Assembly: GCA_028281025.1 (NCBI GenBank)
Contig: JANQKR010000019.1
Coordinates: 1-42,572 of the forward strand
Source: Croceivirga sp.
Lineage (GTDB): Bacteria > Bacteroidota > Bacteroidia > Flavobacteriales > Flavobacteriaceae
Length of the DNA: 42,572 nucleotides
Reading direction: 5' to 3'
The notes beneath the pieces were generated by a model. It had not been told where the DNA came from. It searched no databases and was given only the letters and a program-made list of their open reading frames with translations. The stretch's first letter is position 1. Each line of letters starts with the position of its first letter. This document shows, piece after piece, positions 15,738 through 42,572 of the stretch. The translations under genes were made by a program, and so were the position numbers.

Positions 15738-15753
15738 TATTCTAATCCATACG

Positions 15754-17478: not shown

Positions 17479-18166
17479 CGGTCACCTCAAAGGAGAAAAT
17501 TTGGGAGTTGGATTGGTTCCCTTGTGCATCCCTGGTCAGAACCCTCCAAAAATATTGTGTACCTGATGTAACATCAATATTTTCCAATGAATTGGACGTC
17601 AGTTCCTGTGCAAAGGGCCCAGGTGGGCTGGTAGTGCCAAAGAAAACATCATAAGTAGCAATATCACCATCCAAATCGCTGGATTGCCATTCCAGGGTTA
17701 TTGTGGTTGTATTGGAAGGTAATTGGGCGTTTTGTTGTGGGGAAGGATCGGTTGCGGGAAAGGGCGCATATGATGATAACCCTGGCCCGGCATTGTAAAA
17801 TGAGGCAATGGCACTGTCCGAAGTGTTGTCACTGGACTCTAAAACTGAGGTTACATACCAACTGTAAGGTGTGCTTCTTAACAATCGTATGTCCAAAGAA
17901 TTTGTTTCTGCAGTGAAGGTATCCGTTTCATTGGTTTCCAGATTGATCAGGACTACCCTGTAACTATCCGCATTTTCCGATTGTGTCCACTCAAAGGTCA
18001 CCTCACTTTCCGTATCGGATAAAACAATACCCGTAGTACATAATGAGTTGTCTTCGGGAAAAACAAGACTTACGGCAATTGGGGATAACACCTCGTTAAG
18101 TAAATCAACATCACTACTACAACCGATCAGTAGTACAATGGACCATATGGCCAGATACCGCTTCAT
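17471..18166 (-). CDS. lipoprotein with two fibronectin type III-like domains
   Basis: Predicted lipoprotein of 231 residues with lipobox Cys16 (IVLLIGCSS). Two beta-sandwich units follow: about 35-120 (EVTFEWTQSENADSYRVVL, TPYSWYVTSVLE) and 135-231 (ITLEWQSSDLDGDIATYDVF, GTQYFWRVLTRD). These are the hallmark strands of fibronectin type III or SusE-like modules. The start overlaps the stop of the large sugar-dehydrogenase gene by four bases (ATGA), so the pair should be made together and may be a surface partner of it. The 3' end overlaps cusB by 8 bases on the other strand. The ligand is unknown. Confidence 0.82.
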   Translation of the reverse strand: MKRYLAIWSIVLLIGCSSDVDLLNEVLSPIAVSLVFPEDNSLCTTGIVLSDTESEVTFEWTQSENADSYRVVLINLETNETDTFTAETNSLDIRLLRSTPYSWYVTSVLESSDNTSDSAIASFYNAGPGLSSYAPFPATDPSPQQNAQLPSNTTTITLEWQSSDLDGDIATYDVFFGTTSPPGPFAQELTSNSLENIDVTSGTQYFWRVLTRDAQGNQSNSQIFSFEVTVN

Positions 18167-25161: not shown

Positions 25162-25164
25162 ATA

Positions 25165-26613: not shown

Positions 26614-26800
26614 TTACTTGGTGGTTATAGTGGATTGATGCTAAATTAAATTACTAACGGGCATCAGGTTTTTTTATATAAATCTTATAATCAATTACTT
26701 AAATCAGGCTTTTAATCATAATCCATATTACATTGAAAACGGGTTCCACGATTCAATATTGTTGCTATGGGCATTCATTGTACCTATGGCATGGTATGGA

Positions 26801-28711
26801 TTACAGCGCGTAACTTCTTTCATACATATTGACATACCATTTTTGAAAACAATAAAAAGCCCAGACGCTATACGTGCTATCTTTTTTGTTGGACAAATGG
26901 TCTTTGACCAGCCTAGTGGTATTTTCAACATTGAACAGTTCCTGTGATTCCAAGAACTTGGGGAGGATATAGGATTCCAGTTCGGCCCTAAGGCTTGATT
27001 TAAGCCAGTCACCAACGGGAGAACCAAAACCTTGCTTGCTCTTTTCCAAAAACTGATTGGGGAAACTGCCCTTAAAGGCTTCCTTTAAAATGTACTTCTT
27101 GTTCCAACCCTGCATCAAAAAGTTCTCTGGCAAACCAAGGGTAAAGTCCCATAATTTTTTGTTCAGGAACGGAGCCCTGCATTCCAATGAACATAGCATG
27201 CTCGTTCTGTCGACCTTTGCGAGCATACCCCCCTCAAGACTTAGTGCCCTGTCAATGGTTCTGAAGTCATTTAGGGTTTTAGGCTTTTGAATTCCAAGTT
27301 TATCCCGGTATTCCGCGAACAAATCGGTTTCAAACTTGTCGGGTAAAATAAGGTCTTTCAGTTGGTTTTCGGTATTACCCAAAGAAATAATGTCCCAATA
27401 GTAGTCGCCTTTGTAATTGACGGCCTCTACCATTTTGCGGACCTTAAAACGTTTTCCCCTTTTATCATCCTTGGTGGTGAGCAGCACATTGGATGCTTTA
27501 CGTATCAACCCATGCAAAGCTTCAGGTACAATTGAAGTATACCTGTTGTTCAACTTGCCCACGTAATATTTATTGTAGCCTCCAAAAACCTCGTCCCCAC
27601 CGTCTCCGGTAAGGGCAACTTTTACATAATCCCGTGTTTTTTTAGAGACCAGATATGTGGGAAGCGCAGCGGTGTCTGAAAAAGGCTCGTCAAAGTTCAA
27701 TAGGATTTCATGGATATTGTCCTTTAAATCGTCCTCATCAATGATGAACTCATGGTGGTTGCTATTGATAAGTTTGGCCACTATCCGGGATTTATCCGTC
27801 TCATCAAAAGAGGCTTTTTTAAAACCAATGGAAAAAGTGTCTATCTTTTTATCGGTTAGTTCCGAAAGGCAAAGCGAAACAATGGAAGAATCCACACCTC
27901 CGGACAGGAAAGTTCCTAAAGGCACATCTGAAATAGATCGGCTTTCAATACTTTCCAAAACCAGTTCCCGGGTCTTTTTTTTGGCCTCCTGAAAACTTAA
28001 AGGTCCATCAAAAACAGTTTTAGAGGTGTTGATTTCATTTACAGTGTACGTATGACTTTTTAAATCATAAGTGATGTAATGGTTGGCCTCCAGTTTATAG
28101 ATGTTTTCGTAAATGGTATAGGGGGCAGGTATGTACGTGAGTCTCAAGAAGTGGTTTAACCCTTTCTTTGATACTTTGGGTTTTTCCGATAAAAAATCAA
28201 CCATTGATTTCAACTCTGAAGCCCACATAAATTGGTCCGTGGCATCGGTATAATACAAGGGCTTTTCACCAAAGAAATCCCTGGCAATAAACATTTTGTC
28301 CCTAGTTTTATCATAGATACTGAAGGCAAACATACCATCCAGTTTCCCAAAAGCTTCTTCCCCCTCCATTTCGTAGAGCCTCAGGATGACCTCAGTGTCA
28401 CTTTTGGTTTTAAAAACTACCTGTTTTTGTCGGAGCTGCTCCCTAATTTCCCTGTAGTTATAGATTTCCCCATTAAAAACAATGACTTTTTGATTATCAT
28501 CTGAAAAAATGGGCTGACTTCCCGAACTCAAATCAATAATGGAAAGTCTTCGCATGCCAAGGGCCACATTGGCCAACTCATCGGGATACGTAAAGGTTCC
28601 ACCTTCATCCGGTCCCCTATGGACGATGCGATCATTCATTGCATGAATCTGTTCGGCCAAGTTGTTTGGATGATTGTCAGTTTTGGTAATAAAACCATTT
28701 ATTCCACACAT
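26801..28711 (-). CDS. asnB: asparagine synthase (glutamine-hydrolysing) type amidotransferase
   Basis: AsnB-family enzyme of 636 residues. Cys2 (MCGINGF) is the glutamine amidotransferase nucleophile, with RLSIID, NGEIYNY and the SDTEV segment completing the class II domain (about 1-220). The synthetase domain carries the ATP pyrophosphatase loop LSGGVDSS near residue 270 and LTGDGGDEVFGGY. In polysaccharide clusters such enzymes either make asparagine or amidate a uronic acid, as reported for WbpS-type proteins. The presence of ugd in this cluster makes a uronate amide possible but unproven. The gene lies 11 bases after a glycosyltransferase gene and is likely in the same message. Confidence 0.88.
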   Translation of the reverse strand: MCGINGFITKTDNHPNNLAEQIHAMNDRIVHRGPDEGGTFTYPDELANVALGMRRLSIIDLSSGSQPIFSDDNQKVIVFNGEIYNYREIREQLRQKQVVFKTKSDTEVILRLYEMEGEEAFGKLDGMFAFSIYDKTRDKMFIARDFFGEKPLYYTDATDQFMWASELKSMVDFLSEKPKVSKKGLNHFLRLTYIPAPYTIYENIYKLEANHYITYDLKSHTYTVNEINTSKTVFDGPLSFQEAKKKTRELVLESIESRSISDVPLGTFLSGGVDSSIVSLCLSELTDKKIDTFSIGFKKASFDETDKSRIVAKLINSNHHEFIIDEDDLKDNIHEILLNFDEPFSDTAALPTYLVSKKTRDYVKVALTGDGGDEVFGGYNKYYVGKLNNRYTSIVPEALHGLIRKASNVLLTTKDDKRGKRFKVRKMVEAVNYKGDYYWDIISLGNTENQLKDLILPDKFETDLFAEYRDKLGIQKPKTLNDFRTIDRALSLEGGMLAKVDRTSMLCSLECRAPFLNKKLWDFTLGLPENFLMQGWNKKYILKEAFKGSFPNQFLEKSKQGFGSPVGDWLKSSLRAELESYILPKFLESQELFNVENTTRLVKDHLSNKKDSTYSVWAFYCFQKWYVNMYERSYAL

Positions 28712-28722
28712 ACTACCCAGTT

Positions 28723-29880
28723 TTAATGGTTTATAAAGTTGTTAAACTTGTGGTAAATGTTTTCCAATGAATACGCTTTGGCCCTTTTTAAGCTTAAAGC
28801 ACTGTACCTTTCCCTTGCCTGGGGATCGTTTTTTAGGTATTCCAGTGCTTTTGCCAGGGCAATTTCATCATCGTTATTGATCAATATGCCATAGGATGCC
28901 TTAAAAAAGAAACCTTTTTCTATATTCAATGGCTTGTTGTCATGTAATAATTCATGGGGTCCCGATAAGCAATTGGTAGAGATGCATGGCAATCCCATGG
29001 CCATTGCCTCCAATAGGGCATTGGGGAACCCCTCGGTAAATGAGGATAGTACAAAACAATGACTTTCCCTTAAAAAGGTATTGACATTCTTGACCCTACC
29101 TTTCAAAAAAACCGCTTCCATTAACCCATTTCTTTGAATTTGTTCTTGAAGGTGATCATGTTCGGGGCCACTTCCCAGAATGGTGAGTTCATAACCTGAC
29201 CCCAATTTGGATAATGCCCCAAGAATCATTTTTTGGTTTTTTCTTTCATTAAGTGTCCCTACATTAATTACTTTAAAAGGCTCCTTTATAGTAAGAAGGG
29301 TTTCTGAAGCTATAGTTTCTTTTGGCAGTTCTATGGGGTTATATATGACATCCATGGGTATCCTGATCCTAAAATTTGTTTGTAGATCTTGGTTGATGTA
29401 AACGGAGTTGGAAAAAAGACTGTCACAACGGTTATAAAGCAGTGGATAAAAGATTTTTGAGATATAGAGCGAAAGTTTGGAGGAGGTATTGTCCGAGGGA
29501 AAGCCACGCTCACTGATGATTGTTTTGGTTTTTGGGTTAAAGGGGCTGACCAATCCGTTAATTAGATTGGGAAATGCCAGGAAAGAGATGGCATGCGAAA
29601 TTTTCCTTTTTCGCAATATCTTATGGTACTTAAAAAGAAAGCCAAAGGCGTGCAAAAGCTTTTTGGGAAAACTTATCCTGTCAGGATGCTGTTGTGATAA
29701 AATAATCGTATCCACCTCGCTTGGGATTGGAAAATGGATTTCATTGTAAAACAGTATTAGCGTTACGTTGTAATCGTTTACAAGTTCCTTCAGGAGCAAA
29801 CTGATTACTTTTTCAGCCCCACCACTTGTTAAACTGATGTCTAAAATACTTATGTTTTTCCTTGGGGTCATCGTTTCCAT
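28723..29880 (-). CDS. GT4 family glycosyltransferase
   Basis: Cytosolic retaining sugar transferase of 385 residues adding a sugar to the lipid-linked repeat unit. GT4 landmarks are the N-terminal loop LTSGGAEKVI near residue 18, the central VINVGTLNERKNQKMIL where the donor domain begins, and SSFTEGFPNALLEAMAMG with the Glu pair that holds the nucleotide sugar, followed by SGPHELL. The first residues METM allow a second start at 29871. It is one of three GT4 genes in the cluster that share the GGAE-R/K-hydrophobic opening. Donor and acceptor cannot be told from sequence. Confidence 0.87.
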   Translation of the reverse strand: METMTPRKNISILDISLTSGGAEKVISLLLKELVNDYNVTLILFYNEIHFPIPSEVDTIILSQQHPDRISFPKKLLHAFGFLFKYHKILRKRKISHAISFLAFPNLINGLVSPFNPKTKTIISERGFPSDNTSSKLSLYISKIFYPLLYNRCDSLFSNSVYINQDLQTNFRIRIPMDVIYNPIELPKETIASETLLTIKEPFKVINVGTLNERKNQKMILGALSKLGSGYELTILGSGPEHDHLQEQIQRNGLMEAVFLKGRVKNVNTFLRESHCFVLSSFTEGFPNALLEAMAMGLPCISTNCLSGPHELLHDNKPLNIEKGFFFKASYGILINNDDEIALAKALEYLKNDPQARERYSALSLKRAKAYSLENIYHKFNNFINH

Positions 29881-29895
29881 CTCTTGGTGAAATTC

Positions 29896-30987
29896 CTATG
29901 CTAAAACATCTAAAAATAGTTTTTCGTATGCTCTGAGTATTTTTTCTTTGCTAAACTTTTTATGGACAGAATGGCGAATCTTTTCAGGGTTCCACGTGGT
30001 TTCATCAATAGCCTTTCGGATCAGATCCCCGTATGCCGTTTCGTCTTTTGCAATAAAGCCGTTTACCCCTATTTCTATGATTTCGTCCAATCCGCCATAG
30101 GCATCGAATGCCACTATGGGCGTGCCAACCGAACAACTCTCCAACAAACAATTGGGAAAACCCTCTACATAGGATCCCTGCAGGAACAAATCACTTTGTG
30201 CTAGATAGGTAGCTACCTCTTTTGTATGGGGGATATGGGTAATCTTTGGGCCAATTCCAAGGTCTTCCATAAGTGTTTTTAGCCTTTCCCGTTCGGGCCC
30301 ATCCCCAATCATTAAATACGTAAAATCAAAATCAAGATTTCCCAATACTTTTAAGATACGTTCGTGCCCCTTTTGGCTCTTAAGACTGGCGACCGTGATG
30401 AACTGGATTTTGTCGTGCTTTTTATCCGATGGTCCCTTTAAATGGAAATCATTGGTAATAGGGTTGTTGATCAGTTTCAACTTTTCTGCCGGGATACCAA
30501 AATTCTTTTGCATATCGTTTTTCATGTCTTTGGACTGACAGATAATCATGTCCAAAAAACGATAGCTGATTTTTGTAATTGCATTGTATAATGCGGTGTT
30601 GTGACCTTTGTAGGCCTTTACCACACTCAACACGTTGGCTTCCCTACCTATGAATTTGATCCTTGGAAAAAATATGGAAATAAGCCCCAGGATAGAATTT
30701 AGGTGGGAGATGGAGCTAAGAACAATATCAGGTTTGCTTTGCCTTATGAATTGATATAGTGGCCAAATGCTATGGAGTACCCTGCTTTTGTTGAGATAGG
30801 TGACCTTTACTTTATGTACATCATAAAACGTGTCCTTTTCAAAGCCCGTCAATAACAACTCCGCGTCGAATTTGGAAGTGTCGATTTCTTGGCTAACGAA
30901 AGACATAATACGTTCAGCCCCTCCAGCGACCAAGGAAGGTAGTACAAAGAGAATTTTCTTGTTTTTATGGGAAATGTTAGAGGTCAT
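29896..30987 (-). CDS. GT4 family glycosyltransferase
   Basis: GT4 transferase of 363 residues. The N-terminal acceptor domain begins KKILFVLPSLVAGGAERIM. The donor domain opens with FITVASLKSQKGHERIL, and SYVEGFPNCLLESCSVG carries the donor-site Glu residues, then YGGLDEII. An additional REANVLSVVKAYKGHNT stretch resembles the sugar-handling loop of GalNAc- or glucosyl-transferring relatives, without certainty. The next gene in reading order starts 15 bases after its stop, so the two GT4 genes are co-transcribed. Substrates unknown. Confidence 0.87.
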   Translation of the reverse strand: MTSNISHKNKKILFVLPSLVAGGAERIMSFVSQEIDTSKFDAELLLTGFEKDTFYDVHKVKVTYLNKSRVLHSIWPLYQFIRQSKPDIVLSSISHLNSILGLISIFFPRIKFIGREANVLSVVKAYKGHNTALYNAITKISYRFLDMIICQSKDMKNDMQKNFGIPAEKLKLINNPITNDFHLKGPSDKKHDKIQFITVASLKSQKGHERILKVLGNLDFDFTYLMIGDGPERERLKTLMEDLGIGPKITHIPHTKEVATYLAQSDLFLQGSYVEGFPNCLLESCSVGTPIVAFDAYGGLDEIIEIGVNGFIAKDETAYGDLIRKAIDETTWNPEKIRHSVHKKFSKEKILRAYEKLFLDVLA

Positions 30988-31019
30988 TAGACGAAGGTCG
31001 TAGGATTTATCACTTATTT

Positions 31020-31601
31020 TTAAAGATGCTTGATGATTTTGGTAATATCAATTTCCTTGATTTTTTTTGCTGGATTTCCTGCAATAAAAATTCCCTCTTC
31101 CTTAAAGGATTTGTTTACCACGGCATTTGCTCCAATCGCAATGTTGTTTGCAATTGTAATATCCCCATAAATTTTGGCTCCTGGAGCTATATAAACATTA
31201 TCACCTATCTGTGGAGCTTTAATTTTTCCTCCAGAAGCACCAATATTGGTACATGCGTGAATTCTACAATTTTTACCGATCCTTGCATTTACGTTTATAA
31301 TGATGGTACCATAATGTACAATTGCCAAGCCTGGTCCAAAAACATTTTCGGGTATGGTAAAGCCCAGCTTTAACGAAGATTTACGCAAGAGGTACTTTGC
31401 CATTGGATAATAAATACGCCCAAAAATGCTTGTTTTTACGTTTTTGTAATATTCCGCTTTCCTTAGTCTTTTTTGAAATATCCAGACATGGTTTTTGGAG
31501 AAAATACCTTTAAGTCTTTGCAAACCTGTTTTAGGTTTAATCCGTAAGGCTTTTTTGTCTTCGGCCAAATAATAACGATATTCTTTTTTAGATGTGATCA
31601 T
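31020..31601 (-). CDS. hexapeptide acetyltransferase, serine acetyltransferase-like
   Basis: Left-handed beta-helix acetyltransferase of 193 residues using acetyl-CoA. The N-terminal 75 residues are basic and helical. From about residue 80 the hexapeptide turns appear: FGPGLAIVHYGTIIINVNA, IGKNCRIHACTNIGASGG with the catalytic-type His, then GDNVYIAPGAKIYGDITI and IAIGANAVVNKSF. The HYGTI and CTNIG parts resemble serine O-acetyltransferases and their colonic-acid relatives such as WcaB. In this context a sugar hydroxyl or amine is a more probable acceptor than serine, because it sits 3 bases from the polymerase gene. The exact acceptor is unknown. Confidence 0.82.
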   Translation of the reverse strand: MITSKKEYRYYLAEDKKALRIKPKTGLQRLKGIFSKNHVWIFQKRLRKAEYYKNVKTSIFGRIYYPMAKYLLRKSSLKLGFTIPENVFGPGLAIVHYGTIIINVNARIGKNCRIHACTNIGASGGKIKAPQIGDNVYIAPGAKIYGDITIANNIAIGANAVVNKSFKEEGIFIAGNPAKKIKEIDITKIIKHL

Positions 31602-31604
31602 TTT

Positions 31605-32705
31605 TTAGGGCTGGGTTGCTAATTGTTCTCTGCTCAGACTTATTTGATATTGCAACCACATAGCGCAAAAAATAATGTAAAAGAAATTAAAAAAATTGTG
31701 GTTGGCCATTAGAAATACGGAAAATCCGATGCATTGCATGAATAGGTTAGGTGTCCTTGGAAAGAGCGTAAAACTTCTTGCCAAAAGAAAAAGTATATAG
31801 CCTACAAATAATAGAAACGTTATAATACCGGATTCGCCCAAGACCAGTAGATAACTATTGTGCACTCCAGCGCTATGGGCCCCCTCCCTACCCAAAAAGG
31901 TGCCATACCCATTTCCGAAAACGGGCTTTTCCAGTATGTCCTGGTAAAATTTGGCCCATGTCTCGGTTCTTGAACCCTCACTGATCTCTGTGGTTGAAAC
32001 TTCTTCATTGTTCACAATGGCCATCAGTTGTTCAAACCTGGGATTATTCAGGCCCACTACCTGATCGATAATAACCATTGTGAAAACCAATCCGATTCCT
32101 AGCACGAAAATACGGACGTTTTTGACCGAAATCCAGATAGAGAGGAGATTCACAGCTATCCAAAGGATAATAAAGGTCCTAGAGAACGTGAGCAATCCCA
32201 TTAGGGAGAAGACAAATTGTCCAATCAGTTTTAAATTATTGTTTTTTAAGGACCAAACAAGGCCATAACCAAATATACATACGAAACCGGCAACATTTGG
32301 ATTTATATAAAGTCCACTGTAACGACCAAAATGACTCGGAAAGAACAAGGTTTCAATTCCTATTGTCAAAGCGCCTATGAGCAAGAAAAAAAATAGCTCC
32401 TGTTTGGTGACTTTTTTGATGAGTTCATAGCCCAAAAGGACAACCAAAAAGAACTTTATGGTATCGATAATCAAAATTCTATTGTCTCCATAGTATTGAA
32501 AACTTGCGATCAGGTAATAGCAAAATCCTATAAAGAGCAAGAAAGTATTTGGTTTCGATTTTTGGGTAAAGAGATAAAAAAGAATAAGTAAAAGGAAAAT
32601 GGAGTAGCTGGTAAGACTCCCCAAGGCGGGGCTCACAAATTTTAGCAGCGCCGCTGGGATATTCAGTAAAACTAGTGCCAATATGCCATATTTGACCCAC
32701 TTCAT
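31605..32705 (-). CDS. O-antigen ligase/polymerase family protein (Wzy-like)
   Basis: Polytopic membrane protein of 366 residues with about ten to eleven hydrophobic segments. The long periplasmic loop late in the protein contains SEGSRTETWAKFYQDILEKP and GYGTFLGREGAHSAGVHNSY, the Wzy_C pattern with conserved Arg, Glu and HNSYL followed by LGESG. Proteins of this family either polymerise repeat units (Wzy) or ligate the chain to lipid A core (WaaL). With a Wzx flippase in the same cluster and only one such protein here, a polymerase role is favoured. It follows a GT4 gene after a 52-base gap. Confidence 0.82.
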   Translation of the reverse strand: MKWVKYGILALVLLNIPAALLKFVSPALGSLTSYSIFLLLILFYLFTQKSKPNTFLLFIGFCYYLIASFQYYGDNRILIIDTIKFFLVVLLGYELIKKVTKQELFFFLLIGALTIGIETLFFPSHFGRYSGLYINPNVAGFVCIFGYGLVWSLKNNNLKLIGQFVFSLMGLLTFSRTFIILWIAVNLLSIWISVKNVRIFVLGIGLVFTMVIIDQVVGLNNPRFEQLMAIVNNEEVSTTEISEGSRTETWAKFYQDILEKPVFGNGYGTFLGREGAHSAGVHNSYLLVLGESGIITFLLFVGYILFLLARSFTLFPRTPNLFMQCIGFSVFLMANHNFFNFFYIIFCAMWLQYQISLSREQLATQP

Positions 32706-32757
32706 TTTTTAAAACACTTTGACTTCTTTTTTTAGTTATGGTTGATAAGAACCCATT

Positions 32758-33855
32758 TTAAATTACATCTTTAATCAATTCTCCCCACCTTTTGACGATC
32801 GGGTCATTTTCATATTTTTGAGTAGATATCTTCGCTTTTTCACTAAATTGACCCCGAATGTTTTCATTGGTCATCAAAGCATTGAGTTTTTCCTCGAAAC
32901 ACTTTTGATTGTCCATGGGCACAAGATATCCATTAACTCCGTTTTCTATAAGTTCCGATGGACCAAAATCACAGTCGGTTGATATACAAGGGAGCCCAAA
33001 ATGCATGGCTTCGATAAGCGCATTTGGCAACCCTTCGTAGACGGAGGTAAAAGCAAAAATGCCGGCTTTATTATAATAGTCAGCAATATTTTCTTTTGGT
33101 TCTATGATTTCTATTTTGTTGCCAAGACCAAGCTGTTGGATAAGTGCGAGCAATTCGTTTTTTTTCTTTCCGATCCCAATCATCTTAATTGTCCAATCAT
33201 CGGTATCAAGATTACTGAATGCTTTTATCAATAATTGCTGATTTTTTTGGGCAGCCAATCTACCTATGGTCAATATAGTTCTGCTTGATACATCATAGAC
33301 GCTTCTCGATTCAGTTAAGGTTTTAGAGATGGGATTGGCAATAACCGAAGTTTTGTTTTCCTTGATGGAATCGGAATAGAACTTTCTTACGCCTTGGGTC
33401 TGCAATACTAGATGCGTGGCTTTGGGATACCAAAATCGGCGTTGAACGGACCAGAATTTTGGAACTTTCTCAACAAACGGATTGTTACGTTCACTAATAA
33501 TCGAAGGTATTCCCATAATCTTTGATGCAACCGTGGCGATTACATTGGCAGAAGTGATGAAACCGATCATTAAGTCTACTCTTTCCCTTTTTATTACTTT
33601 ACAGGTTTTTATGACCAGTTTAAAGTTAAGTGCCAAAGACTGTAAAAAGTTCTTGGAATTACCTTTCTTTTCCATGCAGTGAACCACTTTAATTTTTGGG
33701 TTTAAGGGATAAAACGGTTCTCTTTTGATAAAGGTTATGATCAGTACCTCGTACTCCGTGATTAGTTCATTGCTTAGTGTAGAAATAACCCGTTCAGCTC
33801 CTCCATTGGAAAGCTTCCCTATCACAAATGCTATTTTCTTTTTAGGGGTGGTCAT
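32758..33855 (-). CDS. GT4 family glycosyltransferase
   Basis: Third GT4 transferase of the cluster, 365 residues. It opens KKKIAFVIGKLSNGGAERVIS, passes through TSANVIATVASKIMGIPSI and SERNNPF, and the donor domain begins RTILTIGRLAAQKNQQLLI. The nucleotide-sugar site is SVYEGLPNALIEAMHFG, then FGPSELIENGVNGYLV. It resembles galactosyl- or GalNAc-transferring GT4 members such as those with the SERNNP motif, a weak hint only. The gene lies 7 bases after the neighbouring GT2 gene. Confidence 0.87.
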   Translation of the reverse strand: MTTPKKKIAFVIGKLSNGGAERVISTLSNELITEYEVLIITFIKREPFYPLNPKIKVVHCMEKKGNSKNFLQSLALNFKLVIKTCKVIKRERVDLMIGFITSANVIATVASKIMGIPSIISERNNPFVEKVPKFWSVQRRFWYPKATHLVLQTQGVRKFYSDSIKENKTSVIANPISKTLTESRSVYDVSSRTILTIGRLAAQKNQQLLIKAFSNLDTDDWTIKMIGIGKKKNELLALIQQLGLGNKIEIIEPKENIADYYNKAGIFAFTSVYEGLPNALIEAMHFGLPCISTDCDFGPSELIENGVNGYLVPMDNQKCFEEKLNALMTNENIRGQFSEKAKISTQKYENDPIVKRWGELIKDVI

Positions 33856-33862
33856 GATTTAA

Positions 33863-34846
33863 TTAAAATGGAATTTTAAAGATTTTGTGGCGTAAAACAT
33901 TGGCCTGTAATAGTTTGTGGTAAATCTTTATGGGCATGTGATAAGCTAGTTTTAGAAAAAGGTGATGGTTTTTACTCCCATTGTAATTCTTCTTGATAAG
34001 CGCTAAAATCTTTTTCCGATGTACTAGTTCCGGATCAACAAGTGGATTGTAGTTCAATCGCTTATAGTGGTTCAAAAGTTTTTCCAGAATATGGTCATTT
34101 ACCACTTGCAATAGCTCCGCGTCATTCTCATTGGCTACTATGGTTTTTTGCAGATACAAACCAGAATCCACTGAATCCAGTTTTTTGAGTGAATAGGCAC
34201 TATGTGTTATACTATTGGGATTAAAATAGTAGTAATAGAGCACTTCCTCTACGAAAGCAATTTTTTTTATTTTGCGTAAGATATCTATGGTAAAGTAAAC
34301 ATCCATTGAGTTTTTGTTGACCACGAATCTATAGTCATCAAAAATTTCACGTGAATAGATTCTTCGCCACATGGAGAACTGAGTGTTTTTGATCACACGT
34401 TTTAAGGCGGTTAGCCTATCCTCCATTCTATAGTTGTAATTCCCAATTTCTTGGAAGTCCTCCTCTTCCTTTTTTGTATAACGTACATCGCATTCTACAA
34501 CATGAAGGTTTTCTTTTTGGGCAACGGAGATGAGGAGTTCATATTTTCTGGGATGAATCCAATCATCACTGTCGACAAACCCAATAAAGTCTCCGGTTGC
34601 CACTTCCAAACCTGTGTTTCGCGCTACGCTGGCTCCCATGTTCTTTTGATGTAGAACAATTATGTTTTTGTATTTGGAAGCATATTCATCACAGATGGCA
34701 CCGCTGTTATCGGTCGACCCATCATTGATCAAAATAATCTCAAGGTTCTGATAGGTTTGGTTTATCATACTGTTCAAACATCTATGTATAAATGTTTCAA
34801 CATTATATATGGGGGTGATCAAACTTAGTTTTGGACTAGAGGTCAT
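33863..34846 (-). CDS. GT2 family glycosyltransferase
   Basis: Inverting GT-A fold sugar transferase of 327 residues. The N-terminal 100 residues hold the nucleotide-binding part: LSLITPIYNVETFIHRCLNS, LINDGSTDNSG and the metal-binding Asp92-Ser-Asp94-Asp95 in GFVDSDDW. The C-terminal 200 residues form the acceptor part, with SAYSLKKLDSVDSGL. It is a diverged copy of the neighbouring GT2: both share YSLKKL-x-x-(V/I)D and similar basic C-terminal ends, so one probably arose from the other by duplication. Donor unknown. Confidence 0.88.
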   Translation of the reverse strand: MTSSPKLSLITPIYNVETFIHRCLNSMINQTYQNLEIILINDGSTDNSGAICDEYASKYKNIIVLHQKNMGASVARNTGLEVATGDFIGFVDSDDWIHPRKYELLISVAQKENLHVVECDVRYTKKEEEDFQEIGNYNYRMEDRLTALKRVIKNTQFSMWRRIYSREIFDDYRFVVNKNSMDVYFTIDILRKIKKIAFVEEVLYYYYFNPNSITHSAYSLKKLDSVDSGLYLQKTIVANENDAELLQVVNDHILEKLLNHYKRLNYNPLVDPELVHRKKILALIKKNYNGSKNHHLFLKLAYHMPIKIYHKLLQANVLRHKIFKIPF

Positions 34847-34853
34847 TCTTTTT

Positions 34854-35828
34854 TTATGAGTTATCTGCGGCCATTTTTGTCTTTATTCTTTTTTCATTGA
34901 ATCTAAAGAATATTTTATAACACCATATGGGTAAAATATTGATAAGGGTGATATACAACGTGTTAAACTCCAATTTTGAATTGGCCCATATCAGTTTTTT
35001 TACCTTTTTCAAATGGTGGTTGTCAGGGTCGAAATGTGGATTTCTTAAGATGTTGTGATAATGATTGAATAATCTACGAAGAAAGTATTTCCTGAACTTC
35101 CTATGGATTTCCTTGTTTTTGGTCATTCCAGTAAAGTTCTCAACTTTTTCTTTGGTAACGTCGATACCCTCAAGTTTTTTTAGACTATAGCCACTTCGGA
35201 TTATGCTCTCATTTTCCTGAAAATAGTTGAAGAAATTTCTTGGTATAAATCCTACTTGGGTAACCTTTTTATAAATCTCAGAATTGAAAAGGCCATCCTC
35301 GTATAGTACACCCTTCCTGAACCGGGTGTCCCCAATCAGTGAGCGCTTGTAAATTTTATTGCCAACATTATAAAACCCCGGAACGATCATTCGTTGGAGT
35401 GCTTCATCCCTTGTCTCTATATATATTTTATCAAATTCCTCCTTAACCAACACCTCATTTTTACGCTTCCAAATGCATTCGGAAAGCTCAAGTCCATGTT
35501 CCATCATATATTCCAACATGGTTTCATACATTCCAGGCTCAATCCAATCATCACTATCTATAAATGAAATATAGTCCCCGGAAGCCTTTTCCAGGCCATT
35601 GTTACGTGCCATGCTAAGTCCCATGTTCTCCTGGTGCACAACGCTTATCCGCTTATCTTGTTTGGCATACGCATCACAGATTTCCCCACAATTGTCCGGA
35701 GAACCGTCATTTACCAAAATAATCTCCATATGGGGATACTTTTGTTCGAGAATACTATCCACGCACCGTGTTAGATAGTCCTCCACCTTATAAATAGGTA
35801 TGATTATACTGATCAAAGACTTGTTCAT
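34854..35828 (-). CDS. GT2 family glycosyltransferase
   Basis: GT-A fold transferase of 324 residues. Landmarks are ISIIIPIYKVEDYLTRCVDS, LVNDGSPDNCGEICDAYA and Asp91-Ser-Asp93-Asp94 in SFIDSDDW. The acceptor part contains ENESIIRSGYSLKKLEGID and ends in a basic tail. The 5' end is 2 bases from the flippase stop and the 3' end is 7 bases from the next GT2. The paired structure with that gene suggests that both add related sugars to one repeat unit. Confidence 0.88.
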   Translation of the reverse strand: MNKSLISIIIPIYKVEDYLTRCVDSILEQKYPHMEIILVNDGSPDNCGEICDAYAKQDKRISVVHQENMGLSMARNNGLEKASGDYISFIDSDDWIEPGMYETMLEYMMEHGLELSECIWKRKNEVLVKEEFDKIYIETRDEALQRMIVPGFYNVGNKIYKRSLIGDTRFRKGVLYEDGLFNSEIYKKVTQVGFIPRNFFNYFQENESIIRSGYSLKKLEGIDVTKEKVENFTGMTKNKEIHRKFRKYFLRRLFNHYHNILRNPHFDPDNHHLKKVKKLIWANSKLEFNTLYITLINILPIWCYKIFFRFNEKRIKTKMAADNS

Positions 35829-35830
35829 AT

Positions 35831-37357
35831 CTATTTTAACTGTTCAATGATTCTTGAAATTATATTTCTGAAACCTTTGTTTGTGTATAACAATGGAAAA
35901 AACAACAATAGCGTTAACACATTCAGTTTGATTGCGTACAAAATCCAGTCCCAATAGTTGACCACTTCAACTTTGATTAGGTAAGAGCTAATTTGCTCAA
36001 TTAGAAATGCACTTATCAAAAATGCTAACAATAGCTTTATAAAACCGGGCCAATAGTTTGAAAGGACCGACTTATTGAATCCATTCTTAAATAAAAAATA
36101 CGGTTTCCAAATCAAAACGATCAGGGTAAGACTTATCGTAGTGCCCAGCATGATTCCCTTAATTCCCCAAATGGAACCAAAGAAAATGGATATCACAACA
36201 TTTATTACAATCTCCGCAATTGGCGCCCATGTATCTTTGAACAGTCCATATGCGGTAATAAAACTGTCCAAGGGTAACCTAATAAGCGAAATGAAGAGGT
36301 TCACAATCATTAGGATTATTATGGAATTTTCCAATAAATACTTATCACCTATCCAAAGTTGGATAAAAATATGAATCAAAAAATACAAGTTAATGGACGC
36401 AAATCCAGCGATAAAAAAGCGAAGAGCCATCATTTCCCAAAAAACCTTTTTAATTTGGTTCGGATTGTTCTCCGCGACCAAGTTCCCTACACTGGCATTT
36501 ATACCGGTAAGAATTTTCCCCAAGATGTTTTTAAGCATCATGAAGATTAGGTTGTAATTGCCAAAAAATGTAACGCTTTGAATACTTACAAGCGAAAAAA
36601 TCAACAATTGATCTGTACTGTAGGTTACAAAGGCCGCAATCTTGTGAACAAATACCTGTTTTACTTTTTTTATAACATCCTTAAAATCTTTTAGAACTTC
36701 TTTTGTTGTTTTCTGATGAATTATTAGCCAAGGATATTCTTTTACAATCTTACGTCTGATGATATAACTATACGCTACTGAAAATGCCAATTCTAGTGTA
36801 ATCCATATGTAAAGATTACCGTAATAATAAGCAATACCCGCTTGAAGAATCTGCCTTATAATATTGGCAAGCTGATAGGTCTTGGTAACAATATATTCCT
36901 TTTGATCCGCTTTGAGCAAACTCTGGTGGAAGTTGTAAAAATAGCCCAGTAGAGAGGAAATTAGAAATGCAAAAAAGCAATAATAGACCAAAATTAATGA
37001 GAAACTTACCTCAGAGAAAATAAGCCCAAAAAACAATGATACTACTACTCCAAAACCCAGGATAGCCAGGCCTATCTTTTTATATAGATAGCCAAGCAGG
37101 CCAACAATCTTGTTTAATTCATCCCTGTTGTTTTCGTAAATAGGTCGGTAAAGGGCAAATCCTATTGCCGTTCCAATGCCTAATTCGGCAAGATTCAAAA
37201 ATTTCAATATACTTTGAAGCGTCCCTACCAATCCCAGGAATTCATCGCCTAAATGTTCAAGGAAAATTTTTCTGGTAAAGAACCCAATAAAAGTATACAG
37301 CAGATGAAAAAAAAGGTTAACTTTTACATTTTGGATAACTTTTTTTACTCTGGACAT
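35831..37357 (-). CDS. oligosaccharide flippase, Wzx family
   Basis: Polytopic membrane protein of 508 residues with about 12 to 14 hydrophobic segments, matching the polysaccharide transport (MVF/Wzx) superfamily that turns lipid-linked repeat units across the inner membrane. The N-terminal part has FFTRKIFLEHLGDEFLGLVG and LNLAELGIGTAIGFALYRPI, typical of Bacteroidota members. The ATG at 37357 is preferred to an in-frame TTG at 37378 because the extra seven residues (with four Lys/Gln and Tyr) add nothing conserved. A 107-base gap separates it from ugd. It is very AT-rich, as many flippase genes are. Confidence 0.87.
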   Translation of the reverse strand: MSRVKKVIQNVKVNLFFHLLYTFIGFFTRKIFLEHLGDEFLGLVGTLQSILKFLNLAELGIGTAIGFALYRPIYENNRDELNKIVGLLGYLYKKIGLAILGFGVVVSLFFGLIFSEVSFSLILVYYCFFAFLISSLLGYFYNFHQSLLKADQKEYIVTKTYQLANIIRQILQAGIAYYYGNLYIWITLELAFSVAYSYIIRRKIVKEYPWLIIHQKTTKEVLKDFKDVIKKVKQVFVHKIAAFVTYSTDQLLIFSLVSIQSVTFFGNYNLIFMMLKNILGKILTGINASVGNLVAENNPNQIKKVFWEMMALRFFIAGFASINLYFLIHIFIQLWIGDKYLLENSIIILMIVNLFISLIRLPLDSFITAYGLFKDTWAPIAEIVINVVISIFFGSIWGIKGIMLGTTISLTLIVLIWKPYFLFKNGFNKSVLSNYWPGFIKLLLAFLISAFLIEQISSYLIKVEVVNYWDWILYAIKLNVLTLLLFFPLLYTNKGFRNIISRIIEQLK

Positions 37358-37464
37358 TTTTTTTTGTTTAGTATACAAACAACTTTTGCCCTACTTCCCC
37401 AAAGTGAGCTTGTAGAACCGGATATTCCGTGATACTAAAGAATCCTAGTGGCGCAAAACTCAGT

Positions 37465-38793
37465 TTATTTTTTGCCTATTTGATGGTATTCAAAGCCCAT
37501 TTCCTTCATGGTTGTATCATTGTATTGATTACGCCCGTCAAAGATTACCGGCTCGCTCAACTGCTTGCCTATTTCATGGAAATCTGGCGACCTAAATTCC
37601 TTCCATTCGGTCAACAAAATCATAGCATCAGCGCCTTTTAACACATCGTATTTGGAGTTGACATAGGAAATCCCTTCTACACCTTTTAAATAAAAATGCT
37701 GCGCCTCATCCATGGCTTTTGGGTCATAAGCCTGAATCTTTGCCCCCCTTGCAACCAGTTCTTTACAAATATAAATTGCCGGAGCTTCGCGCATATCATC
37801 TGTTCCGGGTTTAAAGGCCAAACCCCAAAGTGCAAACGTTTTACCAGTTAAATCTTCGCCATATCTATTGATGACTTTATTGGCAATAACCAATTTTTGC
37901 TTGTCATTGACATCTTCAACAGCTCCTATCAAAGAAGCCTTGTAGCCATTTTCCTCTGCAGTTTTTTTAAGAGCCTTTACATCCTTGGGGAAACATGACC
38001 CTCCATAGCCACTACCGGGATAAATGAAACTGTAGCCAATTCTACTATCTGAACCAATTCCTATCCTAACTTTATTCACATCAGCGCCGACCAATTCACA
38101 AATGTTGGCAACTTCGTTCATAAATGAAATTTTGGTTGCCAACATGGCATTGGCCACATACTTTGTCATTTCTGCGGAACGGATATCCATGCTGATAAGC
38201 CTATCCATGCTACTTCTGAAGAATGGGGCATAAAGGGCTTTCATCTTTTTTTCTGCCGCAGGATTGTCAGTTCCTATTACTACCCTATCGGGTTTCATAA
38301 AATCGGCGATTGCATCACCTTCTTTTAGGAACTCAGGATTGGAAACTACGTCGAATCCAATATTCACACCTCGTTTGTCCAATTGTCCCTGAATAGCATC
38401 TCTAACTTTATCAGCAGTACCAACAGGCACAGTTGATTTGTCCACTACAATCAGTGGATTTTCCATATAATCGCCAATTTCCTCAGCAACCTTTAAGACA
38501 TATTTAAGGTCTGCTGAACCATCCTCTCCCATTGGAGTTCCGACCGCAATAAAGGCAACATCGCAATTCTCCAAGTGTTCTTTTAGTTGGGTGCTGAATC
38601 TCAGCGTATTACTTTCTACATTGCGCTTTACCATAGGCTCCAATCCAGGCTCATAAATTGGAATAATGCCATTACGCAATTTTTCAATTTTATCACTATC
38701 AATGTCAATGCAGGTCACGGTGTTGCCCATTTCGGCAAAACATGTACCACTAACCAAACCTACATAACCGGTACCAATAACAGTTAAATTCAT
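37465..38793 (-). CDS. ugd: UDP-glucose 6-dehydrogenase
   Basis: NAD-dependent enzyme that oxidises UDP-glucose to UDP-glucuronate, giving a uronic acid donor for the polysaccharide. Residues 1-20 ([20 protein letters not shown]) are the Rossmann NAD site. The central part has [11 protein letters not shown] and the catalytic Cys267 in [10 protein letters not shown]. The C-terminal UDP-binding domain has [18 protein letters not shown]. The length of 442 is usual. It is the first gene of the - strand cluster. Close relatives use UDP-ManNAc or UDP-GlcNAc, but the motifs here fit the UDP-glucose branch better. Confidence 0.92.
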
Positions 38794-39191
38794 TTTCTAA
38801 GATTGTTTTTTATTTGATTTCAATTCTTTTTTTGGGGGTCCCGTATTTTGAGGGGACAAAGATGAACAAAAGAAATTTAATTAACAGGTTTTTAGTTTTA
38901 ACGAATATTTAATCCGATGAAATGAATTTTTGCCACTTAGAAAATGCAAGAAATTCAACGGATGGGCAGCTCCAACTTAAATACAGTATTTCACGAACAG
39001 TGAAGTATTACCAGTATGATTTCCTTCTTTCATGCTTTCCAAGCAGATAAGGTCGTTTTTGGCGATAGATTATTCGCTGTTCTTTAATCGAGGAAATGTG
39101 TACATTCAACGGTTATTTTCAGGGCAAAAATTAAGTTGATAATACCTTTGAACATCCTCCAAAAAAAATGAGTTTGTCTTAACGTCAACCT
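38794..39191. other. 398-base divergent intergenic region between ugd and the copper oxidase gene
   Basis: No credible coding sequence was found on either strand. It must hold the promoters of two divergent genes. For the right-hand gene there is an exact -7 box at 39143-39150. For ugd, CATCTTTG read on the - strand (38864 to 38857) is a one-base variant of the consensus. A short imperfect stem GTCCC/GGGAC lies around 38838-38856. No strong long dyad or known riboswitch was recognised. Confidence 0.5.
39143..39150 (+). promoter_or_regulatory. -7 promoter element before the copper radical oxidase gene
   Basis: TACCTTTG is an exact TAnnTTTG match 41 bases before the ATG at 39192. No TTG is at the expected -33 spacing. 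The AT-rich leader contains a run of seven to eight A residues (around 39163-39170). Confidence 0.45.
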
Positions 39192-42100
39192 ATGAAAAAT
39201 TTTTACCCCACACTAAGCAAAAAATTAATACTTCTTTTTTCTCTTGTAGCATTTACGGTTTACGGCCAAAATCCTTCCCAAGATGGCCAATGGAGTGACC
39301 CAATAGGATTCGGATTGGTACCGGTTGCAGTGGCTAACCTTCCTGATGGGCGATTATTAACATGGTCATCCCAGTTTAGAGATTCCTACATTGGCTCAGG
39401 TGACGGGGCTACTTTTACGGAGATTTTCGATCCATCTTTAGGACCCGATGGCCAAGCTTTGGGAGAGTTTACCAGCAATACCGATCACGATATGTTTTGC
39501 CCTGGTATCAATAATTTGGCAGATGGTCGTATTCTCTCCGCTGGTGGAACCACTAGTACAAGAACTAGTATATATGATTGGAGAACCGGTTTATGGAGTG
39601 TGGCTTCGGAAATGAACATACCCAGAGGCTATCAAGGTAATGTAACATTATCCGATGGGTCTGTTTTCACCTTGGGAGGATCATGGAGCGACGGAGATGA
39701 CCCAGCTACCAATGGGGGCAAGGACGCGGAATTGTGGACCCCAGAATCGGGGTGGAGTTTACTACCGGGTATAGAAGGGGCGGACATTTTCAATGCGGCC
39801 GATATGTCCCGAGAGCTTCAAGGTTTATATAGAATTGACAACCATCTTTGGTTATGGCCTGCTTCTAATGGGCAACTGTTTCATGCAGGTCCAAGTGAAG
39901 AGATGCATTGGATAGATGTTTCCAATGGAGGCTCGATAACCAGTGCTGGAAATAGAGCTGATGACACCTACAGTATGAAGGGTACAACTGTCATGTATGA
40001 TATTGACAAAATACTGAAAGTAGGTGGAGCGGAATCATACGGAAGTAGTGACCCCGCCTTCGTTCCGGCCAAGGACAATTCCTATGTTATAGACATTTCA
40101 AATCCAGGGACTGTCTCAGTTACTCCAACCGTGAACAACCTGTCTTTTTCTAGGACTATGCACAATAGTACGGTTCTTCCCAATGGGGAAGTTTTGGTTA
40201 CCGGAGGTTTGGATAGAGCTGAAGTTTTCTCAGATGTAGGAGCAAGGCTTACAGCAGAACTTTTTGATCCGGCTACAAATTCATGGCGTAACGTTGCGGG
40301 TATGGCAACACCAAGAACATACCACAGTGTAGCTATTTTAATGGTGGATGGGAGAGTATTTGTTGGCGGAGGTGGACTGTGCGACAGTTCGAACTTGGAT
40401 GAATGCGTAAACCACTTTGATGCCGAAATTTATAGTCCGCCATATTTGTTCAATACGGATGGTTCATTAGCGAGTCGGCCAACAATAAGTGCCCCAGAAA
40501 CTGCGGACTATAATACGTCAATACCCGTTACAGGTACATCTGGAATTCAGGAATTCAGTTTAATACGATTTTCTGCAGCTACACATAGCACCAATAATGA
40601 ACAACGTAGAATCCCAGTTTCTTTTTCCCAAGCTGGTTCAAATTATAATGTGAATATCCCGGATCGAAATTTGTTGCCTCCAGGATATTATATGTTGTTC
40701 GCATTAAATGCAGATGGAGTACCAAGTGTTGCGGAAATTGTGCAAATCGGAAATGCCGTTCCCCTTCAGAATAATCCCAATCTGATTCTAAGTTTGGATT
40801 TTGACGAAGGCAGCGGCACGTCAATAACCGACAACTCCGGTAACGCAAACAATGCAACAATAGTTGAAAGAGATGACGCAGGTAATCAAATACCGCTAAC
40901 CCAAAATTATTTTACCAATGATGGACTTTTCGGTGGGGCACTTGAGATGGATGGTCTCGAATTTGACAGTAATACAATTGTTGAGATGCCTTATTCGGAA
41001 TCGTTGGCGGATATAGAAGACGAAATAACCGTTATGGCTTGGATTTATCGTGATGAGAATGCGATGAATGCGGGTATTTTCACACATGATTATCCGGCAA
41101 TATTCTTTGGGACACATAACAGTTTGTACAAATGGGAAATCCCCACTACCGAAGGTTTGGTGCGTTGCTATTCCGGATATATTCCAACGGGTCGTTGGGT
41201 ACATATTGCAGCAACGTTTGATGGGCAGACCGGGAGGCTGTTCGCCAATGGAGTCGAAATATGTACTAGAGCTACCACGGGAACCATGGTATTGAATGAT
41301 ACCGACCCAGAACTTTCCAAATTTACAATTTCTGGATTTTATGATGTAAGGCCAATTTCTGATAGCGGAATAACTGATGAATTGGATGGAAAAATAGACC
41401 AACTTAGGGTATATAACAAGGCTTTGGGAGCTGAAGAAATAAATACAGTCTTTTTAGAGGGTCAGGCCATCAATCCCACTGTACCTAATTGCCCTGACGG
41501 GACAATTACACTGGAGTACCGCATAGGCCCGAATGGTGAATGGGAGACAGGTGAACTAATTGATGTTTTGGAAGGACAAGAGGTTTATATAAGAGCTAAT
41601 GTACCATCCGGAGAAGAGTATTTTGTCACCACCAACATTGGTAATGGACCAACATTTAGTTCTGTTGATGACTTACCATCTCACAGTTTACCAAACACGT
41701 ACAAGATTGACACGTTTGTAAGTGGGGGGGATGGTTTGATAGGTTTGTCAAATGCGGGGCAATTCGTGGTCACAACCCTTTCTGGATGTGCGGATGTAGT
41801 AACTGTGGCAGTTACCCAAGCCTGTGGTCCCGGTTCAACTCCAATCATTCCCGAATATAGAATTGATGGGGTTTGGTTGAGTGGAGCTTCCGAATTGACC
41901 TTGGATGAAGGAACCGATGTTAGATTAAGTGCATTACCGAATGAAGCTAATGGTGGTGGTTTACGAGTAGAAATTACTCTTCCCGATGGAACGGTGGTAG
42001 GTGATAACTATGACCTTTCAAACATCACTGATGCCGATGAGGGAACCTATTTGATAACCTCTGCGCAAGGTTGTACCGCAACATTGACTCTAACGGTTGA

Positions 42101-42572
42101 AAATTCAAGTTGTGCTTCTGGGTCTGTAATCCCGGAATACACCCTGGACGGTGTCACCCAGAGCGGTGCGGGGACCTTGGTAGTAGACGAGGGCACTGAG
42201 GTAATACTGAGCATGCTCCCCGATGGGGTAGGTCTCACGATCACCCTTCCCGACGGTACGGATGTCGGTGACGACTATAACCTTGGGAATGTTACGGCCG
42301 CGCAGAACGGTAGGTACACCTTCACGAGCGCGGAGGGCTGTTCCGCAACACTGGACCTGACGGTACAGGCACCCGGTGGAGGCTGTGCCACAGGCAGCAT
42401 CATTCCTGAATATCGTATAAACGGCCAATGGCTGAGCGGCAGCAACGACATCACGGTCGAACCTGGTTCGGAAGTGATACTGAGTATGCTCCCCAATGGC
42501 ATCGACCTAACGATCACCCTTCCGGATGGAAGCACTGGTGGTGATGATTACCGGTTGACAGGCGTTACCGCC
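39192..42572 (+). CDS. galactose-oxidase-like copper radical oxidase with LamG and Ig-like repeats (partial, runs off the window)
   Basis: Secreted multidomain protein, at least 1127 residues, open to the right edge. A signal peptide covers about 1-25 (ending VYGQ). Residues 27-520 match the fungal galactose oxidase fold (AA5: Kelch propeller plus C-terminal E-set). All active-site residues have counterparts: Cys103 (DMFCPG) and Tyr147 (RGYQ), the thioether pair; Trp165 (GSWSDG), the stacking Trp; Tyr377 and His378 (TYHSVA); His465 (ATHSTN). The E-set ends with LPPGYYMLFALNADGVPS. The predicted reaction is oxidation of a primary alcohol or aldehyde to aldehyde or acid with H2O2 release. A LamG domain follows (about 533-757), then Ig-like repeats of 91-96 residues with a Cys pair each (from about 765). 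The substrate and the C-terminus, perhaps a T9SS domain, cannot be seen. The gene diverges from the polysaccharide cluster. Confidence 0.9.
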   Translation, partial: MKNFYPTLSKKLILLFSLVAFTVYGQNPSQDGQWSDPIGFGLVPVAVANLPDGRLLTWSSQFRDSYIGSGDGATFTEIFDPSLGPDGQALGEFTSNTDHDMFCPGINNLADGRILSAGGTTSTRTSIYDWRTGLWSVASEMNIPRGYQGNVTLSDGSVFTLGGSWSDGDDPATNGGKDAELWTPESGWSLLPGIEGADIFNAADMSRELQGLYRIDNHLWLWPASNGQLFHAGPSEEMHWIDVSNGGSITSAGNRADDTYSMKGTTVMYDIDKILKVGGAESYGSSDPAFVPAKDNSYVIDISNPGTVSVTPTVNNLSFSRTMHNSTVLPNGEVLVTGGLDRAEVFSDVGARLTAELFDPATNSWRNVAGMATPRTYHSVAILMVDGRVFVGGGGLCDSSNLDECVNHFDAEIYSPPYLFNTDGSLASRPTISAPETADYNTSIPVTGTSGIQEFSLIRFSAATHSTNNEQRRIPVSFSQAGSNYNVNIPDRNLLPPGYYMLFALNADGVPSVAEIVQIGNAVPLQNNPNLILSLDFDEGSGTSITDNSGNANNATIVERDDAGNQIPLTQNYFTNDGLFGGALEMDGLEFDSNTIVEMPYSESLADIEDEITVMAWIYRDENAMNAGIFTHDYPAIFFGTHNSLYKWEIPTTEGLVRCYSGYIPTGRWVHIAATFDGQTGRLFANGVEICTRATTGTMVLNDTDPELSKFTISGFYDVRPISDSGITDELDGKIDQLRVYNKALGAEEINTVFLEGQAINPTVPNCPDGTITLEYRIGPNGEWETGELIDVLEGQEVYIRANVPSGEEYFVTTNIGNGPTFSSVDDLPSHSLPNTYKIDTFVSGGDGLIGLSNAGQFVVTTLSGCADVVTVAVTQACGPGSTPIIPEYRIDGVWLSGASELTLDEGTDVRLSALPNEANGGGLRVEITLPDGTVVGDNYDLSNITDADEGTYLITSAQGCTATLTLTVENSSCASGSVIPEYTLDGVTQSGAGTLVVDEGTEVILSMLPDGVGLTITLPDGTDVGDDYNLGNVTAAQNGRYTFTSAEGCSATLDLTVQAPGGGCATGSIIPEYRINGQWLSGSNDITVEPGSEVILSMLPNGIDLTITLPDGSTGGDDYRLTGVTA
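41820..42572 (+). repeat. tandem Ig-like repeat array, GC-rich and open to the window edge
   Basis: Three units are recognisable from residue 877, starting at Cys878, Cys974 and Cys1065, with the pattern Cys-x-x-Gly-Ser..IPEYRIDG.WLSG..LTVDEGTEV.LS.LP..ITLPDGT..GDDY.L.NVT....G.Y..TSA.GC.ATL.LTV. A more diverged unit may precede them (about 765-876). The DNA GC content rises through the array: counted rows near 42181 and 42301 have about 55 and 62 percent GC, against about 40 to 45 percent in the enzyme part. The array continues beyond the edge. Confidence 0.85.

Follow-up and report, generated by a model that had tools for sequence, protein, structure and literature searches.

The gene at the end of the window, by which we mean the whole stretch of 42,572 nucleotides analyzed here (the entire contig C46 of its Croceivirga genome), encodes a homolog of galactose oxidase with an intact set of ligands, and lies in a locus for the synthesis and export of exopolysaccharide (EPS). 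Computation also finds a type IX secretion system (T9SS) tail on the protein and a recurrence of the EPS-locus placement in relatives. Since the gene has this placement and the placement is repeated, the enzyme probably serves to modify slime that the cell itself makes and not to digest a foreign sugar. We put at about 0.6 the probability that it is a T9SS-exported copper radical oxidase acting on primary alcohols, probably galactose-type C6-OH groups, of the bacterium's own EPS, with aldehydes and H2O2 as products. The T9SS would deliver the protein to the cell surface, and its Cu/Tyr-Cys radical site would carry out the oxidation there. Its likeliest target would be the C6-OH of galactose-type residues, which the explanation assumes to be present in the EPS produced by the surrounding locus of the Wzy/Wza/Wzc type, and the resulting aldehydes could cross-link or stiffen the matrix. 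Most work on copper radical oxidases concerns fungi, and what these enzymes do biologically is still being established. Recurrent oxidases in bacterial EPS export loci suggest a testable role, in which a bacterium finishes its own matrix by oxidation, and they offer a source of enzymes for which bacterial polysaccharides may be substrates.

The catalytic region and its predicted copper site

The open reading frame occupies 39192..42572 on the plus strand (1127 aa) and is still open at the contig end. The initial annotation placed the enzyme at 39192-40800, which takes in the catalytic half; it missed the truncation of the gene by the contig end as well as the EPS-locus setting. The parts of the protein are as follows.

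39192..39269, plus strand: putative signal peptide, residues 1-26 (hydrophobic N-terminus, read by eye in the translation)
39270..40748, plus strand: galactose-oxidase-like catalytic region (kelch repeats and GO-like E-set domain), residues 27-519 (phmmer against the PDB, Pfam, and alignment with 69 relatives)
39498..39500, plus strand: C103, Cys228 equivalent, predicted cross-link partner
39630..39632, plus strand: Y147, Tyr272 equivalent, predicted radical tyrosine
39684..39686, plus strand: W165, Trp290 equivalent, predicted stacking residue (69/70 domains)
39831..39833, plus strand: R214, equivalent of Arg330, a galactose-specificity residue of FgrGalOx (alignment with 1t2x)
40320..40325, plus strand: Y377-H378, Tyr495-His496 equivalents, putative copper ligands
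40584..40586, plus strand: H465, His581 equivalent, putative copper ligand
40998..41444, plus strand: LamG (Laminin_G_3), residues 603-751 (Pfam, E 1.4e-20)
41850..42572, plus strand: about three copies of a ~90-aa repeat, the last one crossing into contig C1 (L003:1-460)

When the protein is compared with the PDB by phmmer, the best match is "Galactose oxidase" 9g8h/9g43, with residues 21-519 (E ~3e-127, 429 bits); residues 27-519 match 6ryx (E 1.9e-103, 350 bits), and residues 30-519 match 1gof (E 1.8e-98, 334 bits). Matches of this strength are well outside what chance would give. C103, Y147, W165, Y377, H378, and H465 all pair with identical residues of 9g8h and 6ryx in the alignments. The aligned ranges of 1gof fit C228, Y272, W290, Y495, and H496 by offset, and H465 falls on H581 if additional alignment gaps are assumed. 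The C228-Y272 pair and W290 are named as in PMC13094651. Five of the six site residues are invariant in all 70 domains aligned, and W165 is kept in 69 (best 80 of 131 stretches); these domains are those of the window and of 69 of the 70 loci described below, the partial L075 being left out. The conservation of C103 and Y147 is not independent evidence, because the patterns used to scan for relatives included HDMFC and RGYQ. Within the catalytic region, Pfam places Kelch_6 and GO-like_E_set over their cut-offs and Glyoxal_oxid_N under its own.

The homology thus extends over the AA5 galactose-oxidase type's whole catalytic region, and the elements of the AA5 cofactor are all in place, namely the Cys-Tyr pair C103/Y147, the Tyr-His-His set Y377/H378/H465, and the stacking tryptophan W165. 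The initial proposal of a galactose-oxidase-like copper radical oxidase with every ligand is therefore borne out, both by the PDB matches and by residues kept at the copper and cofactor positions in relatives. The predicted enzyme class, a copper radical oxidase of the AA5 (galactose-oxidase) type that would be secreted, is well supported.

The closest structure, 9g8h/9g43, is similar in that all six site residues align. It differs at both ends: the match begins near residue 140 of its 617-residue chain, the window protein having no counterpart of these N-terminal residues, and the window protein alone goes on after the catalytic region with LamG, repeats, and a T9SS tail. The source of 9g8h/9g43 is presumably bacterial and actinobacterial. 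Fusarium galactose oxidase (AA5_2; 1gof) likewise has more than 150 residues ahead of the matched part that are absent here.

That such enzymes are rare in bacteria, as had been supposed, is an overstatement. Bacterial copper radical oxidases are described in two papers (PMC11267884, PMC11022532), and our scan finds relatives in Bacteroidota, proteobacteria, and actinobacteria (one scan, best 80 of 131). The former paper speaks of bacterial and plant AA5 members that belong to neither of the two fungal subfamilies, and it cites a work whose title names a Burkholderia AA5 alcohol oxidase fused to a CE3 domain (PMC11267884). Judged by this title, the Burkholderia protein is another bacterial AA5 enzyme with an additional domain, although the appended domain is a different one. 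The latter describes GlxA of Streptomyces as a radical copper oxidase with a transmembrane helix, coupled to the cellulose-synthase-like CslA (PMC11022532). Since GlxA and other bacterial AA5 enzymes are known, the class itself is ordinary for bacteria.

Appended domains and predicted export

The LamG module proposed in the initial annotation is present, but the "Ig-like" modules stand only as repeats of about 90 aa: these were located by pattern positions, and Pfam Ig has no match anywhere in the window protein. In 28 proteins (that of the window and those of 27 of the 70 loci, picked for long frames), the E-set domain occurs in 28/28, a T9SS tail in 24/28, LamG in 22/28, and F5/8 type C in 8/28. 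The window protein is one of the four without the tail, because its frame is cut before reaching it.

The tail is found on another contig of the same genome. C46 ends and contig C1 begins with the same 91 bases, and elsewhere in the genome this overlap has only an 80% match over 59 bases, within the same gene. When C46 and C1 are joined, the frame extends to 1249 aa and, past the repeats, closes with a T9SS type-A sorting domain and then a stop. On the C1 continuation this domain scores 48.0 bits with TIGR04183 (cut-off 23, E 9.3e-13) and 53.1 bits with PF18962 (cut-off 27, E 4.1e-14), so that the protein has the C-terminal sorting domain of a T9SS type A cargo. In G002, a genome of the same genus, the whole locus lies on one contig, and the equivalent frame has 2047 aa, with more repeats. 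The gene order after the oxidase is also that of C1 (epimerase, pectate-lyase-like, sugar transferase, DegT, GT4, CapD, Wza, Wzc), and only an Asn-synthase-like gene differs in place. Given the overlap and the single-contig locus of G002, the C46-C1 join is well supported; the number of repeats in the window's strain may be under-counted.

Of the T9SS parts, SprA and GldM are over cut-off in the window's genome, while a PorU sortase model searched against that genome finds nothing over cut-off, its sole weak match being the oxidase's own tail. The earlier suggestion of an exported protein gains from the T9SS tail on C1, beyond the window, and the signal peptide is plausible by eye; export would then follow the type IX route.

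The exopolysaccharide locus

Upstream of the oxidase gene, and facing away from it, the window holds the following.

24106..35828, minus strand: EPS genes, namely one unknown, an MBOAT acyltransferase, an Asn-synthase-like amidotransferase, three GT4, a hexapeptide transferase, a Wzy_C protein, and two GT2 (Pfam; NCBIfam for 26801-28711)
35831..37378, minus strand: possible Wzx flippase (length, hydrophobic sequence, position)
37465..38793, minus strand: divergent neighbor of the UDP-glucose/GDP-mannose dehydrogenase family, probably a UDP-glucose 6-dehydrogenase (three Pfam UDPG_MGDP_dh domains)

Neither Pfam nor NCBIfam gives a match to the flippase candidate at 0.01. Downstream, on C1, come an Asn-synthase-like gene, a sugar-nucleotide epimerase/dehydratase, a pectate-lyase-like gene, an initiating sugar transferase, an aminotransferase, GT4, and a CapD-like gene, then Wza, with Poly_export and SLBB domains, and Wzc. 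The latter is 98% identical to the Wzc of G002, in which Wzz, GNVR, and the TIGR01007 tyrosine-autokinase domain are over cut-off. Wzy_C and Bac_transf, the initiating sugar transferase, are also over cut-off in the locus. Of the parts of a Wzx/Wzy EPS locus, it has a Wzy-type polymerase, an initiating transferase, Wza, and Wzc, with the flippase a candidate. With EPS genes on both flanks, the oxidase gene is inside the EPS locus. The epimerase of the locus reaches no NCBIfam cut-off among the matches listed (25 models). The Asn-synthase-like amidotransferase at 26801-28711 resembles eps_aminotran_1 with 478 bits, under the cut-off of 817, and the EPS might contain amidated sugars.

The arrangement is similar to that of GlxA and CslA, where a copper radical oxidase is likewise encoded together with the machinery that builds a glycan of the cell itself. 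The differences are a transmembrane helix and the partner CslA for GlxA, and a T9SS tail and a Wzy/Wza/Wzc-type locus for the window protein. By analogy, the window protein may work like GlxA for a different kind of polysaccharide machine. Membership in the GlxA equivalog family itself (NF052501) is rejected, at 133.8 bits for a cut-off of 800.

Recurrence among relatives

We searched 395 Flavobacteriaceae genomes, drawn evenly with the window's own included and a completeness threshold of at least 90, and with an E-value limit of 1e-60 found the catalytic domain in 17 of them, at 26 places. These 17 genomes have one to three wza genes each, and in each one a Wzc gene adjoins the best Wza. Fourteen of the 26 places, in 10 of the 17 genomes, lie at most 15 kb from wza, compared with 0.33 expected by random placement and a maximum of 6 in 200,000 draws, figures to be read with rounded genome sizes in the placement model and with linked loci that are homologous and not independent events. 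The window's own distance between oxidase and wza was computed through the C46-C1 join. All 14 linked places adjoin the genome's best-scoring wza; one of them, in G129, matches only in part, within a frame of 275 aa, and may be a disrupted gene. Genomes G182, G211, and G306, three of the 17, have a catalytic copy on each side of wza. The other 12 places are not within 15 kb of wza, and some linkage could be missed since several of these are at contig ends. A smaller search of 99 nearer genomes, own included, had found the domain in six, at nine places.

A scan of genome contigs yielded 70 loci, taken from the best 80 of 131 stretches that code for a relative. Among these 70 relatives, 24 are EPS-linked (best 80 of 131): 20 carry two or all of CapD, Wza, and Wzc in flanks that extend to 10 kb at most, and another four carry three or more further genes resembling those of the window's EPS locus. 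All 24 fall within the 50 loci L026-L075, which by title are Bacteroidota, mostly Flavobacteriaceae, with Flagellimonas, Maribacter, Kriegella, and Croceitalea among the matches listed. In L076-L095, EPS genes are absent by this test, which distant EPS genes may escape because the reference proteins came from the window's own locus. The position of the oxidase gene within the EPS loci varies: it is found before capD, after wzc, or on both sides. About a dozen relatives share another block by the order of their open reading frames (GH31/M48/MFS/ECF-sigma; best 80 of 131); in L033, the one annotated, it consists of GH31, an M48 peptidase, an MFS transporter, DUF2807, two proteins without a match, and an ECF sigma factor.

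In a tree of the 70 catalytic domains (quick method, SH-aLRT only, L075 being too short to include), the 24 EPS-linked rows, that is, the window and 23 loci, all fall in one clade of 30 rows with a support of 98. The EPS-linkage label changes five times on this tree, against about 20 when it is shuffled, and by our count six rows of the clade lack the linkage. Two loci of Maribacter halichondriae, L052 and L057, have identical catalytic domains, one at an EPS locus and the other in a block of the GH31/ECF-sigma type, which suggests recent duplication or gene conversion. L040, a MAG contig, has a GH31/ECF-sigma-type block on the upstream side of the oxidase gene and, on the downstream side, epimerase and dehydrogenase genes of the EPS type; this arrangement results from either recombination at the gene or misassembly.

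We found no paper containing both "galactose oxidase" and "Wzc" in the literature searched, and no title on a flavobacterial galactose oxidase in EPS loci among the matches listed, in a search with most of the subscription literature outside it. As far as searched, the repeated placement of such an enzyme, with a T9SS tail, in EPS export loci is unreported. There may be a marine flavobacterial lineage with dedicated T9SS-exported copper radical oxidases in Wzy-type EPS loci, often beside capD-wza-wzc or on both sides of it, whose aldehydes would cross-link the fresh EPS, in a diderm counterpart of GlxA-CslA; to this broader proposal we give slightly less than even odds.

Substrate clues and rival explanations

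Together with the ligands, the equivalents of Trp290, Tyr329, Arg330, Tyr405, and Phe464 are all kept in the window protein, and R214 (Arg330) as well as the Phe464, Tyr329, and Tyr405 equivalents are kept in 30/30 of the EPS-linked clade. The residue at Fusarium position 194 presumably corresponds to Y66, by an offset estimate. At position 383 (Fusarium numbering) the window protein has Lys. The equivalent of Gln406 is Gly here, so the pocket differs from that of FgrGalOx, and across the EPS clade it is Gly, Asp, Ser, or Ala. R330 matters for galactose in FgrGalOx, according to PMC8207647, and according to PMC11267884 galactose-specific and general alcohol oxidase activities are dispersed across many AA5_2 clades. 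Judged by these residues, a galactose-like C6-OH is a plausible substrate.

The initial annotation had named either marine polysaccharide or the cell's own exopolysaccharide as the substrate. An attack on foreign marine polysaccharide, as a part of carbohydrate degradation, is unlikely. It would account for LamG and F5/8 type C, domain types that are often carbohydrate-binding, as it would for the pectate-lyase-like gene within the oxidase's own locus and for the dozen or so relatives next to a block that starts with a GH31 gene in its sole annotated example (best 80 of 131). The neighborhood, however, is one of EPS synthesis and export, and no SusC-like gene was found in any of the 70 flanks at 1e-15 (best 80 of 131; tblastn with 12 SusC queries; many flanks shorter than 10 kb), though the window's genome has about 30 SusC genes over cut-off, from which the queries were drawn. 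As a control, 144/144 pairings of the 12 queries (self included) pass the same threshold. At the density of the window's genome (~30 per 5.1 Mb), 5.0 SusC genes are expected in L026-L075, with a Poisson P(0) of 0.007; the expectation is given for these loci only because non-Bacteroidota loci are not expected to have SusC. That none was found near the relatives counts against a polysaccharide-utilization setting and makes a polysaccharide-digestion locus unlikely. Thus of the two substrates the cell's own EPS, with its locus setting and recurrence, is favored, and marine polysaccharide is disfavored.

The three other explanations are weaker still. The production of H2O2 might be the enzyme's main job, against competitors or to feed a peroxidase, and the alcohol oxidized would then matter little. 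Copper radical oxidases do reduce oxygen to H2O2, as stated in PMC13094651, and 12 of the 26 copies are away from wza, but the repeated placement beside capD-wza-wzc is then left unexplained, and we consider this quite unlikely. If EPS loci are exchange hot spots for unrelated cargo, the gene could simply be hitch-hiking in them, as its patchy presence (17/395 genomes) and the identical catalytic domains at EPS and non-EPS sites of one Maribacter genome would suggest. Cargo of this kind would hardly be expected to keep its ligands fully conserved, to occupy several different positions within EPS loci, and to adjoin the best-scoring wza of the genome at 14 places, which makes hitch-hiking improbable. 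Finally, a non-catalytic kelch protein merely resembling an oxidase would fit the Pfam result for the catalytic region, where kelch and E-set domains alone pass their cut-offs and Glyoxal_oxid_N remains below its own. With galactose oxidases as the best PDB matches over the whole region and every cofactor residue present and conserved, this is scarcely credible. Oxidation of the cell's own EPS remains the preferred explanation.

Upstream element and other genes of the window

A tentative regulatory site precedes the oxidase gene by about 110 bp.

39084..39119, plus strand: two-box element (TTAATCGA... then ...CAACGGTTATT), tentative regulatory site (weight-matrix scan)

It scores 34 in the window, which belonged to the matrix's training set along with several of the scanned loci. 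G002, outside that set, is the only independent strong match: the element is at the same place and scores 29.9, against a best of 16.3 in six shuffled windows. A strict pattern is satisfied by the window and six loci, and k-mer counts are barely above those of shuffles. At L034:17144, L039:17299, and L052:21336, none of them at the oxidase gene, the matrix likewise gives scores of 17-19.4, which exceed the 16.3 of the best shuffled window; the site before the oxidase gene reaches only 17-18 in L037, L043, and L044. A weaker two-box form precedes the pectate-lyase-like gene at L003:3733-3790 (17.5) and L014:7284 (20.5). This hints, as a lead at most, that the oxidase and the pectate-lyase-like gene might be jointly controlled. 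Where the oxidase gene follows wzc in the same direction (nine loci, several of them near-identical Maribacter), the gaps measure 149-331 bp, and several contain a hairpin with a T-run, identified by eye. A single wzc-oxidase operon is rejected because of these gap sizes and hairpins.

Genes farther upstream in the window include CusA/CusB-type copper/silver efflux genes at 12072-17478, about 22 kb from the oxidase gene. CusA/CusB genes adjoin the oxidase gene in 2/70 loci (L070 and L073), with 66% identity for CusA and about 49% for CusB (best 80 of 131); the remaining CusA matches, at 26-32%, are judged to be generic RND. A link of the oxidase to copper efflux is noted here as a remark only. 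At 18163-22857 there is a 1564-aa protein with repeats and a T9SS tail, whose match to glucose/sorbosone (PQQ) dehydrogenase (68.6 bits) is below cut-off; it is possibly a second extracellular sugar oxidoreductase near the EPS locus. The gene at 6085-9000 encodes a GH3 domain fused to a beta-lactamase-family domain.
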